A DNA stretch of 64,000 nucleotides from Granulosicoccus sp. (GCA_020627685.1 JAHDGK010000004.1:1-64000), one strand, 5' to 3'. Shown: positions 27,004-35,306, counted from the first letter of the stretch. The notes: a model not told the origin generated them from the sequence alone. A program made the numbers and translations.

Positions 27004-28029
27004 ATGAATACTGATCCAGAAAAGACAAATAAGTCCATAGTCAGTCAGCTGTGCGATGCCATGTATGATTTTGACTCTGCAACGGTACGTACTCTATTAA
27101 AAGATTTACTTAGTCCGGATTGCCTTATTCACATGTGCTATCCGTTTGGTGATTTACACGGGGCAGATACCTTTTACAGCACCGTCTATCACAATCTACT
27201 TAATGCAATTCCTGACCTAGAACGAAGAGATTTTATTCGAATCGCAGGCCCCACGGAAGACGACGAGCAATGGGTCGGATGTGCGGGATATTACATGGGG
27301 TGTTTTCAGAACCCATGGTTCGGAATTCCAGCTACCGGTCAATTCGTGTCGTTTCGATACCACGAATTTTATAAAATTGAGAATGAAAAAATCGTAGAAA
27401 TCCAAGCCGTCTGGGATTTACCGGAATGGCTCCATCAAATTAACGTCTGGCCCTTAGCTCCAAGTCTTGGCCGGGAATTTCAAGTTCCTGGACCTGCTAC
27501 TAACGATGGTGTGGTATCCCGATCTTTTAGCCATGCGCACAACTTGCAAACTCGCCAACTGATTGTTGACATGCTAGGTGCTATGGTCCGACATCCTTCT
27601 GAGGGTGGACCAGAACTCATGGAACTGGATAAGTTCTGGCATCCGAGAATGAACTGGTACGGTCCATCAGGTATTGGTACCTGCAGGGGTATTGATGGGT
27701 TCAGGAGATGGCATCAAATACCTTTTTTAAAAGCCATGCCTGATCGAGGTCAATTCCAAGACGAAATTCAGCTACATTTTTTCGCTGAAGGCAATTACGC
27801 AGCTGTAACAGGATGGCCTGATATGGCTCAAACACTTAGCCACGATGGGTGGTTAGGTATACCTGCAATCGGTCAAAAAATATATTTACGTAGCCTTGAT
27901 TTTTGGCGTATTGAAAATGGCCGAATCCGTGAGAATTGGGTGTTAGTAGACCTTCTAGATATTTACTCCCAATTAGGCGTCGATGTGTTTGCTAGGGCAA
28001 GGGAAATTGCTCAGACAAGAATCCCCTAG
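27004..28029 (+). CDS. tandem SnoaL-like (ester cyclase/NTF2-fold) protein
   Basis: Protein of 341 aa built of two SnoaL-like halves. Half one (about 15-155) has WFGIPATGQFVSFRYHEFY and IVEIQAVWDLPEWLHQI; half two (about 180-335) has WLGIPAIGQKIYLRSLDFW and IRENWVLVDLLDIYSQLGV. The NTF2-like cone binds a small hydrophobic ligand; in SnoaL enzymes it catalyses aldol cyclisation, but many environmental homologues have no known reaction. Half two resembles the single-domain protein at 59104-59604. No polyketide genes are nearby, so polyketide cyclisation is not supported. Confidence 0.75.
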   Translation: MNTDPEKTNKSIVSQLCDAMYDFDSATVRTLLKDLLSPDCLIHMCYPFGDLHGADTFYSTVYHNLLNAIPDLERRDFIRIAGPTEDDEQWVGCAGYYMGCFQNPWFGIPATGQFVSFRYHEFYKIENEKIVEIQAVWDLPEWLHQINVWPLAPSLGREFQVPGPATNDGVVSRSFSHAHNLQTRQLIVDMLGAMVRHPSEGGPELMELDKFWHPRMNWYGPSGIGTCRGIDGFRRWHQIPFLKAMPDRGQFQDEIQLHFFAEGNYAAVTGWPDMAQTLSHDGWLGIPAIGQKIYLRSLDFWRIENGRIRENWVLVDLLDIYSQLGVDVFARAREIAQTRIP

Positions 28030-28835: not shown

Positions 28836-29957
28836 TTAAAGTGGCAAATCTCTAACAACACCGTCTCTGAGGGATCCGTCAGCACATTGAATCGTCACTA
28901 ATTGCCCATCGTTCCAATAACCACGGATCACCATCCCTAAGCTAACGTTGGCTTCCAATCGTGGCGACCATATCGCTGTGGTAACTTGTCCCACCTCACG
29001 CTCATTAACAAACACTGGCCAAGCGGATGCGCAGGGTGGACACTTGTTACCGTTAAAGACAATACCTTTTACTCGTTGTTTTATACCGTCATCTGATATT
29101 TTTTTTAATGCAGCTTTACCTATGTAATCCACGTTGTCATCGATGGAACAGTAGGCTTGCATGTTGCATTCGAGGGGATTGTTTTCTTGAGTAAATTCGT
29201 TGCCGTAGGACAATAGTCCTCCCTCGACCCTCTCAATCAGGTTTGGGGAGCCGGGCCTGACATTAAACTCTGCGCCAGCATCCCACAGTGCATCCCATAG
29301 AGATAATCCAAGACTTGAATCGTCCAGATAGATTTCAAAACCCCCTTGTCGACTATATCCAGAGCGCGCAACTACGAGAGGGTGACCACTGAACTCCAAA
29401 ATTTTAAACCTGAAGAAAGCAATGTCTTTTATATTTTCCCCGAACACTTTCAGCATTAGCTGTTCCGATTTAGGACCTTGTACAGCGAGAGGAGAAACAT
29501 CGGGTTCACAAATTGAGACATCGAGCCCCATACCGACCGACAAGCCTTTGGCCCAGAGAAGTACATCTGAATCAGCGATAGACAACCAAAAACGATCTTC
29601 AGCTAATTTGAGTACTACGGGATCGTTAAGCATCCGCGCTTCGTCGTCAATTAATGGAAGATATAAACACTGCCCCACTTCGGTTTTTTGAATATTTCTC
29701 GGAGTCATTAGCTGCATAAGCTTTGCAGCATCACGCCCCTTCAGCTCAACTTGTCTCTGGCAACTGACGTCCCACATCTGCACATGTTCTTTCAAATGCC
29801 AGTAGTCTTCCTCCACAGAGCGGCCAAACCCTTTAGGAAGGACCATATGATTAACTATGGAATAGTCACTGACCCCGAGAGATTCGACCCTTGGTGTATA
29901 CGGCGTGCCTCTCAGGCGTCTTGATACTGCAAGTTTTGCTGCACGCGGCTCTTTCAT
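28836..29957 (-). CDS. DmdA-like tetrahydrofolate-dependent demethylase (GcvT family)
   Basis: Cytosolic GcvT-fold protein, 373 aa. The N-terminus SRRLRGTPYTPRVESLGV and the segments YSIVNHMVLP, HLKEHVQMWDVS, RQVELKG, LAVQGPKSEQLM, VVARSGYSRQGGFEIY and NLIERVEGGLLSYGNE match, as far as I recall them, the DMSP demethylase DmdA more closely than glycine-cleavage T protein. DmdA moves a methyl group from dimethylsulfoniopropionate to tetrahydrofolate. It is the last of three genes and overlaps the transthyretin-like gene by 4 bases (ATGA). DmdA is usually not linked to such partners, so the substrate could be DMSP or another S- or N-methyl compound. Family call secure; substrate open. Confidence 0.75.
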   Translation of the reverse strand: MKEPRAAKLAVSRRLRGTPYTPRVESLGVSDYSIVNHMVLPKGFGRSVEEDYWHLKEHVQMWDVSCQRQVELKGRDAAKLMQLMTPRNIQKTEVGQCLYLPLIDDEARMLNDPVVLKLAEDRFWLSIADSDVLLWAKGLSVGMGLDVSICEPDVSPLAVQGPKSEQLMLKVFGENIKDIAFFRFKILEFSGHPLVVARSGYSRQGGFEIYLDDSSLGLSLWDALWDAGAEFNVRPGSPNLIERVEGGLLSYGNEFTQENNPLECNMQAYCSIDDNVDYIGKAALKKISDDGIKQRVKGIVFNGNKCPPCASAWPVFVNEREVGQVTTAIWSPRLEANVSLGMVIRGYWNDGQLVTIQCADGSLRDGVVRDLPL

Positions 29958-30325
29958 GCCGAATTCCCTTTCTCAGTTTTACCCGACCACCATATTGAAT
30001 ACGCATGTGGAGACAACATGACTGGAACGTGATACTTGGCAGCCGGATCGGGTAGTGTTAATTGAACGACGATGGTAGGCATGATCTGTACGGTTGAATT
30101 AATTAGGCCAGTTTGATCAAAATATTCTTGTGAGTGAATGAGCAACTGCACTTCATCACCCGCTGATAGGTCAACCCGTTCCGATATCCTTCCCTCTTCG
30201 TTCGCATGGACACTAAATATAATTTCCATTGCACCGTTGGATTGCCTTCTCTGACACTCAATTCGTATTCCAGCCGCATGATCACCTGTCACAGAATCTA
30301 AAATGTGAGATGAGATAATTGCCAT
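29954..30325 (-). CDS. transthyretin-like protein (5-hydroxyisourate hydrolase family)
   Basis: Cytosolic beta-sandwich protein of the HIUase/transthyretin-related family, 123 aa. The three residues known as catalytic in HIUase appear kept: His7 (SSHILD), Arg46 (EEGRISE) and His99 (KYHVPVMLSP). The otherwise near-invariant C-terminal YRGS is replaced by IWWSG and an extra tail TEKGNSA follows. No urate oxidase, OHCU decarboxylase or allantoinase is nearby. It lies between the ThDP-enzyme gene (21-base gap) and the DmdA-like gene (4-base overlap), so it may hydrolyse a cyclic intermediate other than hydroxyisourate. Confidence 0.72.
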   Translation of the reverse strand: MAIISSHILDSVTGDHAAGIRIECQRRQSNGAMEIIFSVHANEEGRISERVDLSAGDEVQLLIHSQEYFDQTGLINSTVQIMPTIVVQLTLPDPAAKYHVPVMLSPHAYSIWWSGKTEKGNSA

Positions 30326-30346
30326 ACTTTTAATTTTCCAGTCTGA

Positions 30347-32068
30347 TCACTCTATTGATGCCTTGTCACGCTTACTGGTGGTCGCCAGTACGATGGGACT
30401 AATGTGCCCCATTGTTTTTACGTTAATGCAGGCAGTTTTACCACTGGAAATGGCCCGTTGCACTGCGGGGATAATTTCATCTCTGGATTCGACCAATTCG
30501 CCATATCCACCAAGCCCCTCAAACATTTTATGGAATGGAATATCTCTGAAGTCCGTGGCGAAATGAGTCTCGCTGTTGAACAAGCGCTCCTGCTGCTGAG
30601 ATATACAATCCAGTCCACCGTTATTATCAATAACCACCACGATGGGCAAATTTTCTTGAAATGCGGCTTCCACGCTCAGACCACCTGACAGAAACGCACC
30701 GTCGCCACTGATCAACACAACGTTGCTCTTAGGATTTGTCATTTTTGCCGTGATCGCGAATGAGACGCCAACCCCAAGCAAACTAAACGTCCCCGGATGC
30801 AGAATGTTTCCAAGCTTTTGTCCTTGGTAGCCTGCGATATTGACCGCAATCTCTGACCAGAAATGTGTGTTCCCACCATCAATGACTAGCCAATCCTCCT
30901 CAGCCATTGCCTTCTGAACATCTAGAGCAACATGCAGAGGATGAATGGCGCCGTTGAGTTCTTCCGTCGACGGTAGATCGCTGAGCATTTTGTCTACCCA
31001 AACGCCTCGACGCGCCGCATTGTCATTGAACCATTGTTTGTCCAAGGTCCATTGGCCGGCATCGTGCCGTTTTAGCAGCTCGTCAAAAAAGGCACCCGGA
31101 TCACTGAGCAACGTTTCGTCCGCTGCGCGATTGAGGTCCAACTCCTCGTGCGAACCGTTGACACAGATCAGTGTTGTGGATGACGGGAAGAACGGCGGGT
31201 TACCAAAATTCAGCTGATTGTCTAAGCGCGCGCCAACCACGATCGTGACATCGGCTTGGCCCAACGCATATTCAGATGGGTGATATTGGTGAATGTCTGC
31301 CAACCCCATATAAGGGCTGACATGCTCACCCAATAGTTTTTGATGATAGGGCACATTGAACACAGGAATATTCAGCCGGGTACCCACCGCTTCGAGTTTG
31401 CGCTCAGCACCTGACCACCAAACTCCATGCCCTGCAATCAGGATGGGTCTGGATGCGTTTTTGATGGCATCGAAAATCCTGTCCATGTCCTCAGGGCAAG
31501 GCCACGCTCGCGGAGTCGGTTTTTTTGCTCGCACAAACGGGCGTTCTTCCAGGCCGACATTTTCATCAAACGAGCTGAACATAATATCGACAGGCAAGCT
31601 GAGATGAACCGGGCCTGGATATCCACTGAGAGCCATCTTGTAGGCTCGGTCGACAAATTCCCCGATTCGTTCACCATGGGTAACTTCGATACTGTATTTG
31701 GTTAAGGGTGCTGCAATTGCCACATCATCTATTTCTTTAAACCCTCCTGCGCCCTTTCGTCTGTGCGTACTCGAACCCGTCACGAAAATGACCGGCGATC
31801 GTTCACCCCAGGCCTCCATCATGGCGGGGACAGCGTTGGCAAACCCTTCCGGTCCTACCAGGCAGACACAGGGCTCCCTGGTAATACGGGTATAGCCGTC
31901 AGCCAGGTGTCCGGCGACCTGCTCATGGGGGGCGTTAATAACAGGGATTTGGCACTCCATAAAACCTTCGAGCGCTGGGTTGCAGAACCCACCGCTAAGG
32001 GTGAAAACCTGACGCACACCTTTGTCTCGAAAGGCTCTGGCCAACAACGCTCCACCACGGATTTTCAT
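30347..32068 (-). CDS. thiamine-diphosphate-dependent enzyme (acetolactate synthase superfamily)
   Basis: ThDP enzyme of 573 aa with N-terminal pyrimidine-binding domain (catalytic Glu in NAPHEQVAGHLADGYTR), central domain, and C-terminal ThDP/Mg site SGDGAFLSGG to VVVIDNNGG. It is the size of benzoylformate decarboxylase, 2-hydroxyacyl-CoA lyase or acetolactate synthase large subunits. No small regulatory subunit is adjacent. It opens the operon with the transthyretin-like and DmdA-like genes; RBS GGAG lies 9 bases before the ATG. The company suggests carbon-carbon cleavage or decarboxylation in a catabolic route, not branched amino acid synthesis. Confidence 0.8.
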   Translation of the reverse strand: MKIRGGALLARAFRDKGVRQVFTLSGGFCNPALEGFMECQIPVINAPHEQVAGHLADGYTRITREPCVCLVGPEGFANAVPAMMEAWGERSPVIFVTGSSTHRRKGAGGFKEIDDVAIAAPLTKYSIEVTHGERIGEFVDRAYKMALSGYPGPVHLSLPVDIMFSSFDENVGLEERPFVRAKKPTPRAWPCPEDMDRIFDAIKNASRPILIAGHGVWWSGAERKLEAVGTRLNIPVFNVPYHQKLLGEHVSPYMGLADIHQYHPSEYALGQADVTIVVGARLDNQLNFGNPPFFPSSTTLICVNGSHEELDLNRAADETLLSDPGAFFDELLKRHDAGQWTLDKQWFNDNAARRGVWVDKMLSDLPSTEELNGAIHPLHVALDVQKAMAEEDWLVIDGGNTHFWSEIAVNIAGYQGQKLGNILHPGTFSLLGVGVSFAITAKMTNPKSNVVLISGDGAFLSGGLSVEAAFQENLPIVVVIDNNGGLDCISQQQERLFNSETHFATDFRDIPFHKMFEGLGGYGELVESRDEIIPAVQRAISSGKTACINVKTMGHISPIVLATTSKRDKASIE

Positions 32069-32564
32069 GCACCCGGTCTCCTCGAATCACCTAAACTAAG
32101 CCTGAGTGTACGACACGTCCAGAAGATTCCCCGTATCTTTTTATATGCGTAGGCGCTGGAATCGAAAATACGTTGTTGCTCGTACAAACTCCAAGAAGAA
32201 ATTTCGGATAAACGCTGCTTGTGCGTGGCGTTTCTGCTCTTAGGATTAGCCTCCAAGGAGCTCAGTAAGCATCAGACAGCAATTGCCTCTCATCGGCAGG
32301 AGTACCGAATCACAAATTTGGCCTGAAAAGCCCCCGTGGACCAACCCAAGACACCCTATTTGGCGCAATGCTGGCACCCTACTTTGCGGTAACATGCGTC
32401 ATGCGGGTTGTCGCAGGTAGGGACCTGCACGGCAGTAACATCGACAACTCTCCAAAATTATTGTGAATGGAATCGTGCTTTTCAGTACGCATCCAATCAT
32501 CTATGACAGCAGTTTTCAGCAGACCCCCTTTCATCGACTACTGATTTAATAGGAGTACGACACA
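32069..32564. promoter_or_regulatory. divergent regulatory region between the ThDP operon and xsc
   Basis: 496 bases without a convincing gene between two divergent transcription units. A perfect hairpin GCAGGT / ACCTGC (32413-32428, loop AGGG) lies about 137 bases before the xsc start and could belong to its 5' leader. No known riboswitch was recognised. AGGAG at 32551-32555 is the xsc RBS. Confidence 0.4.
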
Positions 32565-34346
32565 GTGAAAATGACTACCGAAGAGGCCTTCATCAAGGTT
32601 CTTCAGATGCACGGTATCGACAATGCGTTTGGCATTATCGGTTCAGCCATGATGCCTATCTCCGACTTATTTCCAGACGCTGGTATCAAATTCTGGGATT
32701 GTGCCCACGAATGTAATGCCGGTATGAGTGCAGACGGCTACACGCGTGCGACTGGCAAAATGTCCATGGCGATCGCGCAAAACGGTCCGGGAATCACTAA
32801 TTTTGTTACTCCTATCAAGACTGCTTACTGGAACCACACGCCGCTGCTGTTGGTAACACCACAGGCAGCCAACAAAAGCATCGGTCAAGGTGGGTTCCAG
32901 GAAATCCAGCAGATGGCTTTATTCCAGGACATGGTGGCCTATCAGGAAGAAGTCCGTGACCCTAGCCGGATCGCTGAAGTCTTAAACCGAGTCATCGAGC
33001 AAGCTTGGCGTGCGTCTGGCCCGGCTCAAATCAACGTTCCTCGTGACTACTGGACAAAGGTAATCGATATTGATTTACCGCAGGTTGTACGCCTTGAGCG
33101 ACCACGTGGCGGAGCCACAGCTATTGAACAGGCAGCAGACCTTCTGTCTAACGCTCAGTTCCCTGTCATCTTAAACGGTGCCGGTGTTGTTATTGGCGGC
33201 GCAATCGATGCTTCTCGCCAACTCGCTGAAGTACTTGACTCACCGGTATGCTGTAACTACCAGCACAACGATGCATTCCCGGGTTCTCACGAGCTCTCCA
33301 TGGGACCATTAGGCTACAACGGTTCGAAAGCCGCGATGGAAATCATCGCAAAAGCCGATGTAATTCTTGCACTGGGTACACGCCTTAATCCTTTCTCAAC
33401 GCTTCCAGGCTACGGAATCGATTACTGGCCTAAAGATGCCAAGCTGATCCAAGTCGACATTAACGCAGACCGAATTGGTCTAACTAAGCGCGTTGACGTT
33501 GCCATTCAAGGTGATGCGAAATACGTGGCAGAACAAATCAAAGCACAATTGAGCAAAGGCGCAGGCGATGCCGGTCGTGAAGACCGTAGAGCGCTTATCA
33601 AGCTAACCAAAGATCGTTGGGCTCAAGAACTTGTGTCGATGGAACACGAAGAAGACAACGACGAAGGTATTACGTGGAACGAGCGTGCACGCGAGCGTGA
33701 GCCAGATCGTATGTCTCCCCGAAACGCCTGGTTGGCCATCCGTGATGCACTACCCGATGAGGTCATCATCTCAAGTGACATCGGCAACAACTGCGCAATC
33801 GGTAACGCTTACCCCACTTTCGAGAAAGGTCGTAAATACCTAGCGCCAGGCTTATTTGGCCCTTGCGGTTACGGATTACCGGCTATTCTTGGTGCAAAAA
33901 TCGGCTGTCCTGATGTGCCGGTTGTCGGTTTTGCAGGTGACGGTGCGTTCGGAATCTCCATGAACGAGATGACTGCCTGTGGTCGCAACGACTGGCCACC
34001 CATCACTATGGTTATCTTCCGTAACTATCAGTGGGGTGCTGAGAAGCGCAACACCACACTCTGGTACGACGATAACTTTGTCGGCACAGAGCTCAACCAA
34101 GGCGTCGAATACGCACAGATCGCTGATGCGTGTGGACTGAAAGGTGTGAAGGTCTTCAACACTGACGAGCTGACCGAAGCATTGAATACAGCAGTTAAAG
34201 AGCAGATGAACGACAACGTAACTACGTTTATCGAAGTTGTTCTTAATCAGGAATTAGGCGAGCCATTCCGCCGTGATGCGATGTCAGCACCTAATAAGGT
34301 TGCCGGCGTAAGCGCAAGCGATATGCGTCCTCAGCAAATCAGCTAG
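32565..34346 (+). CDS. xsc: sulfoacetaldehyde acetyltransferase
   Basis: ThDP-dependent enzyme, 593 aa, converting sulfoacetaldehyde and phosphate into acetyl phosphate and sulfite, the desulfonation step of taurine and other C2-sulfonate breakdown. Pyrimidine domain with catalytic Glu in CAHECNAGMSADGYTR and the Xsc-like stretch NGPGITNFVTPIKTAYWNHT; ThDP site FAGDGAFGISMNEM to FRNYQWGAEKRNTTLWYDDN, typical of Xsc. GTG start with AGGAG 9 bases upstream. Phosphotransacetylase (pta), the usual neighbour, and taurine-deaminating enzymes are not in the window. Released sulfite might be exported (TauE/SafE protein at 58315) or oxidised. A strong terminator follows. Confidence 0.92.
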   Translation: MKMTTEEAFIKVLQMHGIDNAFGIIGSAMMPISDLFPDAGIKFWDCAHECNAGMSADGYTRATGKMSMAIAQNGPGITNFVTPIKTAYWNHTPLLLVTPQAANKSIGQGGFQEIQQMALFQDMVAYQEEVRDPSRIAEVLNRVIEQAWRASGPAQINVPRDYWTKVIDIDLPQVVRLERPRGGATAIEQAADLLSNAQFPVILNGAGVVIGGAIDASRQLAEVLDSPVCCNYQHNDAFPGSHELSMGPLGYNGSKAAMEIIAKADVILALGTRLNPFSTLPGYGIDYWPKDAKLIQVDINADRIGLTKRVDVAIQGDAKYVAEQIKAQLSKGAGDAGREDRRALIKLTKDRWAQELVSMEHEEDNDEGITWNERAREREPDRMSPRNAWLAIRDALPDEVIISSDIGNNCAIGNAYPTFEKGRKYLAPGLFGPCGYGLPAILGAKIGCPDVPVVGFAGDGAFGISMNEMTACGRNDWPPITMVIFRNYQWGAEKRNTTLWYDDNFVGTELNQGVEYAQIADACGLKGVKVFNTDELTEALNTAVKEQMNDNVTTFIEVVLNQELGEPFRRDAMSAPNKVAGVSASDMRPQQIS

Positions 34347-34418: not shown

Positions 34419-35306
34419 TCAGTGACTTGCCTGTAGATTTTCAGACAGACAGGCAATATGCGCAGGTCCGACCTCGCAGCAACCTCCGATGAGCGTTGCC
34501 CCTCCGCTGACCCATCCCATGGCAAAAGCGGCATAAGCTTCCGGGCCAAGGTCGTTACGCGTCTCTAATGAATCCACGGTTCCTCCAGGCTTAAGATCGG
34601 TCACGGATGTAAACCCGTTGGCGTAGGCACCAAAAGGTACGTCGCACGCTTTCGCAAAATCTGCCCAAATGGCATCGATGGTCTCTGGACGCGAACAATT
34701 TAACAGCACGGCCGCAGCCCCTCGCTCTTGTACACGCATCACTGCCTCCTGCCAGGGTTCTCCGCCTCTTAGACAGTTTGGGTTTTTATCGTCTAGCGTT
34801 AATGCAAGCCAGACAGGCTTTCCAAAAACCGATGCAGCTTCCAACGCGTATTCAGCCTCGGCAACGCTTGCCATGGTCTCGCATATAAAGAAGTTGACCG
34901 TGTCGTTTTGCGCCGCTGCTATTTTGGTATACGTATCGACGGCGATCTCTTTGGCAGGTGTTAATTCAGGGTGGTAGCTTGCGACCAACGGTGGCAAACA
35001 CCCCGCAATTTGAACGTTAGGAACACCGGCTTTTGTGATCGCACTTTTAGCGACATCACAAGCAGCCCGCTGTACCGGTTCAAACAGTTCAGCACGGCTA
35101 TGTGCCGCGAGCCTCTCGGGAGTTGCACTGTACGTATTGAGCGTAATGACAGACGCACCGGCTTTAATAAAATCAATGTGCAGCTGTTCTACTATCTCAG
35201 GGGTGTCGAGCATGACCTGGGCAGACCATAAAGGCGATGGATCTTTGCCCGAACGACGAACGAGCTCCTGCCCCATTCCACCATCGAGTAATGTGACACT
35301 TTGCAT
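34419..35306 (-). CDS. homocysteine S-methyltransferase family protein
   Basis: Cytosolic zinc-dependent methyltransferase, 295 aa, size of MmuM. Start TLLDGGMGQELVRR; zinc ligands in VLLNCSRPE and the C-terminal GGCCEVGPAHI. The family transfers a methyl group from S-methylmethionine, betaine or similar donors to homocysteine. A good RBS (AAGGAA) precedes the ATG. With the DmdA-like protein and sarcosine oxidase nearby, a role in methylated-compound use is possible; the donor cannot be read. Confidence 0.86.
   Translation of the reverse strand: MQSVTLLDGGMGQELVRRSGKDPSPLWSAQVMLDTPEIVEQLHIDFIKAGASVITLNTYSATPERLAAHSRAELFEPVQRAACDVAKSAITKAGVPNVQIAGCLPPLVASYHPELTPAKEIAVDTYTKIAAAQNDTVNFFICETMASVAEAEYALEAASVFGKPVWLALTLDDKNPNCLRGGEPWQEAVMRVQERGAAAVLLNCSRPETIDAIWADFAKACDVPFGAYANGFTSVTDLKPGGTVDSLETRNDLGPEAYAAFAMGWVSGGATLIGGCCEVGPAHIACLSENLQASH

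Follow-up and report, generated by a model that had tools for sequence, protein, structure and literature searches.

The DNA analysed here, hereafter the window, is a stretch of 64,000 nucleotides from Granulosicoccus sp. (GCA_020627685.1 JAHDGK010000004.1:1-64000) that carries, at positions 28836 to 32068, an operon of three genes on the minus strand. These encode, in this order, a thiamine diphosphate (ThDP)-dependent enzyme, a transthyretin-like protein resembling 5-hydroxyisourate hydrolase (HIUase), here named TTH, and a relative of the dimethylsulfoniopropionate (DMSP) demethylase DmdA, here named DMD. A previous sequence-only reading of the window had described the genes as tightly packed, with a 21-base gap followed by a 4-base overlap, and the coordinates confirm it:

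30347..32068, minus strand: ThDP-dependent lyase/decarboxylase, first gene of the operon (573 aa)
30326..30346, minus strand: 21-base intergenic gap between the ThDP and TTH genes
29954..30325, minus strand: transthyretin/HIUase-like protein, TTH (123 aa)
29954..29957, minus strand: 4-base overlap (ATGA) of the TTH stop and the DMD start
28836..29957, minus strand: DMD, DmdA-derived GcvT-fold tetrahydrofolate (THF)-dependent methyltransferase (373 aa; function assigned from homology)

The ATGA overlap implies translational coupling of TTH and DMD, and a ribosome-binding site, GAGGAG, closely precedes the ATG of the ThDP gene. Pfam searches support the three family assignments of the sequence-only reading (ThDP enzyme, transthyretin-like and GcvT-fold DmdA-like proteins), with TPP_enzyme_N, M and C domains in the ThDP enzyme, a Transthyretin match in TTH (63.8 bits vs a cut-off of 25.3), and GCV_T plus GCV_T_C domains in DMD.

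Scanning genomes with the window's ThDP protein yielded 80 loci at 68-82% identity, whose taxon names, as labelled in the records, span Granulosicoccaceae, SAR116, Rhodospirillaceae, Hyphomicrobiales, Comamonadaceae-type Betaproteobacteria, other Gammaproteobacteria, and metagenome-assembled genomes (MAGs) labelled Chloroflexi or Deltaproteobacteria. Among the 67 loci with enough flanking sequence, TTH lies directly 3' of the ThDP gene in 65, and both TTH and DMD follow it in 61, excluding that the three genes are together in this genome only. Additionally, a gene for a flavin mononucleotide (FMN)-dependent 2-hydroxyacid dehydrogenase is found directly upstream of the ThDP gene in 59/72 relatives. 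Thus, the usual form of the module has four genes (FMN 2-hydroxyacid dehydrogenase, ThDP enzyme, TTH and DMD), and the linkage of the three window genes far exceeds chance and spans four major lineages, namely Alpha-, Beta- and Gammaproteobacteria and Chloroflexi. No FMN dehydrogenase gene is present beside the window operon or in its closest relatives (L009-L013), explaining why the sequence-only reading missed the fourth gene; an ApbA/PanE-family reductase occupies its place in two of them (L010 and L011). One gammaproteobacterial MAG holds two copies of the operon (L149 and L150): in one, the FMN gene lies upstream, while the other, truncated where its contig stops, is followed by an ApbA/PanE gene. 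Plasmid-borne relatives of the ThDP enzyme were only distant (<30% identity). Considering its conservation across classes, and that no published description of a dmdA, transthyretin and ThDP gene combination was found in the literature searched, the operon is apparently undescribed, functionally linked and catabolic, as previously proposed from the sequence.

The ThDP enzyme family is well conserved, with 78% mean column identity over 20 members, in all of which the catalytic Glu49 in PHEQ, GDG at 455-457 and NN at 482-483 are invariant, while the C-terminal tail KRDKASIE is near-invariant. The window enzyme scores below every curated cut-off, including those for 2-hydroxyacyl-CoA lyase (HACL; 230 bits vs 600) and oxalyl-CoA decarboxylase (224 bits vs 557). 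Its nearest structures are oxalyl-CoA decarboxylase, HACL and benzaldehyde lyase (~22-27% identity in the fold search), although its predicted model showed poor domain packing (pLDDT 76, rmsd ~18 Å) and served for fold class only. Thus, it shares the ThDP motif and the catalytic Glu with this group, but differs from it in its sub-cut-off scores, its characteristic tail and the lack of partners handling coenzyme A (CoA). In relatives, the ThDP gene repeatedly adjoins a 2-hydroxyacid dehydrogenase gene from one of five unrelated families, namely FMN_dh, ApbA/PanE, D-isomer 2-hydroxyacid dehydrogenase, Ldh_2, and a GlcD-type flavin adenine dinucleotide (FAD) enzyme, the latter at L153 and, as read by eye, at L115. 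Since these families replace one another, the substrate of the ThDP enzyme is probably a 2-oxo acid, the swapping being good evidence but not proof. The closest full-length PDB match of the FMN protein is (S)-mandelate dehydrogenase, and the arrangement recalls the mandelate pathway, in which this FMN enzyme is followed by a ThDP enzyme, benzoylformate decarboxylase. The operon differs from this pathway in the closer affinity of its ThDP enzyme to HACL, oxalyl-CoA decarboxylase and benzaldehyde lyase, in the addition of TTH and a THF demethylase, and in the lack of an aldehyde dehydrogenase.

TTH is predicted to adopt the HIUase fold (AlphaFold pLDDT 92; TM 0.79 to 4q14), and the catalytic residues H7, R46 and H99 are kept in 60/60 sequences. 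However, the C-terminal YRGS of HIUases is lost, being replaced by IWWSG in the window copy and by xWWS in the family, where W112 is conserved in 60/60 and W113 in 55/60 sequences. The window protein reaches 65.8 bits against the HIUase model TIGR02962 (cut-off 87.45), and all operon copies in the 31 carrier genomes stay under this cut-off (maximum 81.5), while 23 of these genomes encode a separate canonical HIUase above it; that of the window genome ends in YRGS. The kept His/Arg/His set, the replaced C-terminus, the low scores and the separate HIUases together indicate that TTH is probably a hydrolase with altered specificity. As a speculation, its Trp pair could bind a cation, and a cyclic substrate, as formerly contemplated, would have the HIUase homology of TTH as its sole basis. 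The urate pathway was rejected as the main role of the operon in view of the separate HIUases.

DMD passes the NCBIfam DmdA equivalog NF009133 (551.2 bits vs a cut-off of 410), and it keeps the GcvT fold and the conserved folate residues of the DmdA encoded by the dmdABCD operon of Phaeobacter inhibens and by Pelagibacter. In a tree of 61 sequences, operon DMDs form one branch (support 100/98) nested within the DmdA clade and sister to roseobacter DmdAs (96/90), among them the one encoded in the P. inhibens dmd operon; a second DmdA of the window genome and SAR11 DmdA branch further out. Unlike DmdA, this monophyletic branch has four substitutions fixed in 71/71 operon DMDs, Y32V, A/T39K, E63Q and D250E in SAR11 numbering (V35, K42, Q67 and E254 in the window protein), whereas other DmdA and DmdA-like proteins, even distant ones, keep Y32 and D250 in 20/20 and E63 in 19/20 cases. 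Its operon partners also differ, being the ThDP, TTH and FMN enzymes; DmdB, DmdC or DmdD genes, which are typical but not universal DmdA neighbours, are found in none of the conserved operon neighbourhoods. Of what would have spoken against the sequence-only proposal, a position firmly within a functional DmdA clade together with unrelated neighbours, only half is thus observed: DMD is indeed nested among DmdAs, but on a separate branch with fixed residues of its own and with conserved non-DMSP neighbours. The W197Y change was discarded as proof of missing DMSP activity, because the DmdAs of P. inhibens, Marinovum and Antarctobacter also have Tyr.

The window genome encodes two further, more distant DmdA homologues, with 47% and 42% identity to DMD. 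The second homologue (L002, G000 C42:6264-7298) has the canonical W197, Y32, E63 and D250, adjoins genes for an MscS-like channel and an Lrp-type regulator, and is likely the actual DmdA of this genome. The third one (L003, G000 C117:2606-3700; 42% identity) lies directly downstream of a Rieske-type oxygenase gene, and its product branches with a Marivivens DmdA-like protein that adjoins DmdB/C/D-like genes.

Putting these observations together, we give even chances to the operon being the Granulosicoccaceae version of a conserved route that combines α-oxidation and THF-dependent demethylation of an onium, probably dimethylsulfonio, 2-hydroxy or 2-oxo acid. Gene linkage, family assignments, the catalytic residues kept or changed, and phylogeny are observed directly; the 2-oxo-acid chemistry, methyl acceptor and onium substrate are inferred, while the order of the last three steps, the TTH reaction and the candidate substrate are guesses. 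In such a route, a methylated carboxylate would be imported by a peptide-type ABC, TRAP or Tct transporter, depending on the lineage, and freed from an amide where needed. An interchangeable dehydrogenase would then oxidize the 2-hydroxy acid to the 2-oxo acid. Most carriers would use the FMN enzyme for this step; in the window lineage, the activity might come from a gene at another site of the genome, or the oxo acid might have a different origin. The ThDP enzyme would subsequently release the 1-carboxyl as CO2, TTH might hydrolyse the decarboxylation product or a cyclic or amide-like form of it, and DMD would transfer one methyl from the onium centre to THF. That the methyl goes to THF, as already suggested by the sequence-only reading, is probable from the DmdA ancestry and from the folate one-carbon genes beside some copies. 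A dimethylsulfonium centre is favoured because of this same ancestry, nitrogen-based onium or ureide-like compounds being possible alternatives. As a candidate substrate, 4-dimethylsulfonio-2-hydroxybutyrate (DMSHB) or its oxo acid is a rather unlikely proposal, made because DMSHB is a natural 2-hydroxy sulfonium acid on which another protein of ureide-pathway fold is reported to act: DsyD of Gynuella sunshinyii, whose ureidoglycolate-lyase-fold domain decarboxylates DMSHB in DMSP biosynthesis (PMC11306096). This precedent differs from the operon in that DsyD is biosynthetic and its fold has no homology to TTH.

A bolder formulation, which we hold tentatively, is that a re-purposed HIUase fold, a neofunctionalised DmdA and a ThDP 2-oxoacid lyase constitute a so far undescribed aerobic pathway acting on an onium 2-hydroxy acid, dimethylsulfonio or other (e.g., DMSHB), and that part of the dmdA counted in marine and freshwater genomes and metagenomes marks this pathway and not DMSP demethylation. 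If true, SAR116, freshwater Comamonadaceae, Granulosicoccaceae and Chloroflexi, all widespread aquatic bacteria, would have an additional means of drawing both carbon and methyl groups from a methylated acid, and a branch of enzymes that a standard model scores as DMSP demethylases may act otherwise, affecting dmdA-based estimates of marine sulfur flux. In this context, a SAR116 study reported dmdA in one subclade only and without dmdD (PMC8547437); since the SAR116 loci among the relatives carry the operon-form DMD, published SAR116 dmdA counts may include it.

Several observations weigh against the onium-acid route. It is not obvious where a TTH reaction would fit into sulfonium chemistry, and no aldehyde dehydrogenase is conserved beside the ThDP gene. 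No 2-hydroxyacid dehydrogenase gene adjoins the operon in the window, and the best such enzyme of its genome shows only 47% identity to the SAR116 FMN enzyme. Moreover, ThDP and TTH genes occur without DMD in six loci (L015, L049, L085, L086, L122 and L153), and the ThDP gene occurs alone with Tct transporters in several Granulosicoccaceae, so that the ThDP enzyme need not act on a methylated substrate. Finally, the recurrent MttB-like and amide-hydrolase neighbours would agree just as well with amides or nitrogen-based onium compounds as substrates.

Alternatively, the operon might serve ordinary DMSP demethylation, with DMD as a functional DmdA producing methylmercaptopropionate (MMPA) and the FMN, ThDP and TTH proteins either forming an alternative MMPA route or being loosely linked. 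Both the equivalog score of DMD and its position beside roseobacter DmdAs agree with this, as does its being the sole DmdA homologue (E<=1e-60) in 6/31 carriers, namely five betaproteobacterial MAGs and one MAG labelled Methylocystis, although several genomes are incomplete MAGs, for which absence is weak evidence. These six genomes provide a direct test ground for DMD function. DmdD homologues, detected anywhere in the genome in just 5/31 carriers, that of the window included, leave room for another MMPA route, but a missing DmdD proves little, being known for other DmdA carriers too. Considering, on the contrary, that the four substitutions affect every operon DMD, and that Pelagibius encodes, in addition to an operon DMD, a canonical DmdA whose gene adjoins those of a DmdB-like ligase and an AcuI-like reductase, ordinary DMSP demethylation appears unlikely.

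In a ureide or purine-type route, the FMN enzyme would oxidise a 2-hydroxy acid resembling ureidoglycolate, giving an N-oxalyl acid similar to oxalurate. This would be decarboxylated to an N-formyl compound by the ThDP enzyme, in the manner of oxalyl-CoA decarboxylase, to which it is close; TTH or a neighbour would cleave the amide, and DMD would demethylate an N-methyl group. The retained His/Arg/His set of TTH, the recurrent amide hydrolases (S51, DMF-amidase-like, isochorismatase-family, amidohydrolase and CN-hydrolase proteins) and the Ldh_2 neighbour, which has the fold of ureidoglycolate dehydrogenase, are consistent with it. Nonetheless, the methyl used in DmdA chemistry must be activated (onium), unlike that of amide N-methyl groups. 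TTH also lacks YRGS, a canonical HIUase is encoded separately in most carriers, and the operon has no conserved urate genes next to it, making this route quite improbable. Very unlikely, too, is CoA-dependent α-oxidation, with the ThDP enzyme as a HACL that follows a PhyH/TauD hydroxylase and gives an aldehyde and formyl-CoA: its best PDB and fold matches are indeed HACL/HACS, and six loci have PhyH-like genes in their vicinity and a few have TauD-like ones, but the enzyme falls far below the HACL cut-off, no CoA ligase or transferase is conserved, and FMN/FAD 2-hydroxyacid dehydrogenases work on free acids.

Loci departing from the four-gene form give ThDP-TTH the look of a core and DMD that of the part specific to methylated substrates, since both a second Pelagibius cluster and Tct-linked ThDP loci occur without DMD. 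That second cluster (L153) consists of seven genes, TctC-TctB-TctA-ThDP-TTH-GlcD-like FAD dehydrogenase-TauD, its TauD protein scoring 284.6 vs a taurine dioxygenase cut-off of 313. In five Granulosicoccaceae loci (L116, L117, L118, L124 and L126), a 68-70% identical ThDP protein is encoded beside TctC/TctA genes, with neither TTH nor DMD in the sequence available. At L086, PhyH-like proteins precede a ThDP-TTH-SnoaL-like arrangement, which is followed by formate dehydrogenase-like genes.

Regarding neighbours in relatives, lineage-specific recurrent companions include peptide-type ABC, TRAP or Tct transporters and LysR regulators. Amide-hydrolase-type genes also recur, encoding S51 peptidase-like, dimethylformamide (DMF)-amidase-like plus isochorismatase-family, and carbon-nitrogen hydrolase proteins, as does a pair of amidohydrolase and transglutaminase-like proteins. 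Folate one-carbon genes lie near some copies (PurU-like, homocysteine methyltransferase and, by eye, MTHFR-like), and the formate dehydrogenase-like genes of L086 are counted with them. Altogether, the neighbours suggest that the substrate is a carboxylate, in some cases supplied as an amide, and that C1-folate is used. PDB matches were uninformative about transporter ligands (GsiB/YliB, AgaA, and sialic-acid and isethionate TRAP proteins). Upstream of SAR116-type operons, an MttB-family (trimethylamine methyltransferase-like) gene stands beside the S51 peptidase-like gene in eight loci (L036, L038, L040, L054, L056, L057, L059 and L067).

Next to the window operon, a 341-aa tandem double SnoaL-like protein is encoded at 27004-28029; neither it nor the adjoining thioesterase is conserved in relatives. 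The other flank comprises:

32069..32564, no strand: divergent intergenic region between the operon and xsc, probable site of the operon promoter
32565-34346: xsc, divergent from the operon, matching the Xsc model
34419..35306, minus strand: homocysteine S-methyltransferase family protein, possibly accessory

The xsc product is a true Xsc (920 bits vs a cut-off of 676). Nevertheless, none of the 80 relative loci has a true Xsc neighbour, only weak ThDP cross-matches of 22-29% being observed, so that the divergent xsc loses the value as a hint of an organosulfur substrate once attributed to it. The homocysteine S-methyltransferase is considered possibly accessory because homologues recur several kb or less from the operon in five loci (L030, L031, L041, L060 and L122).

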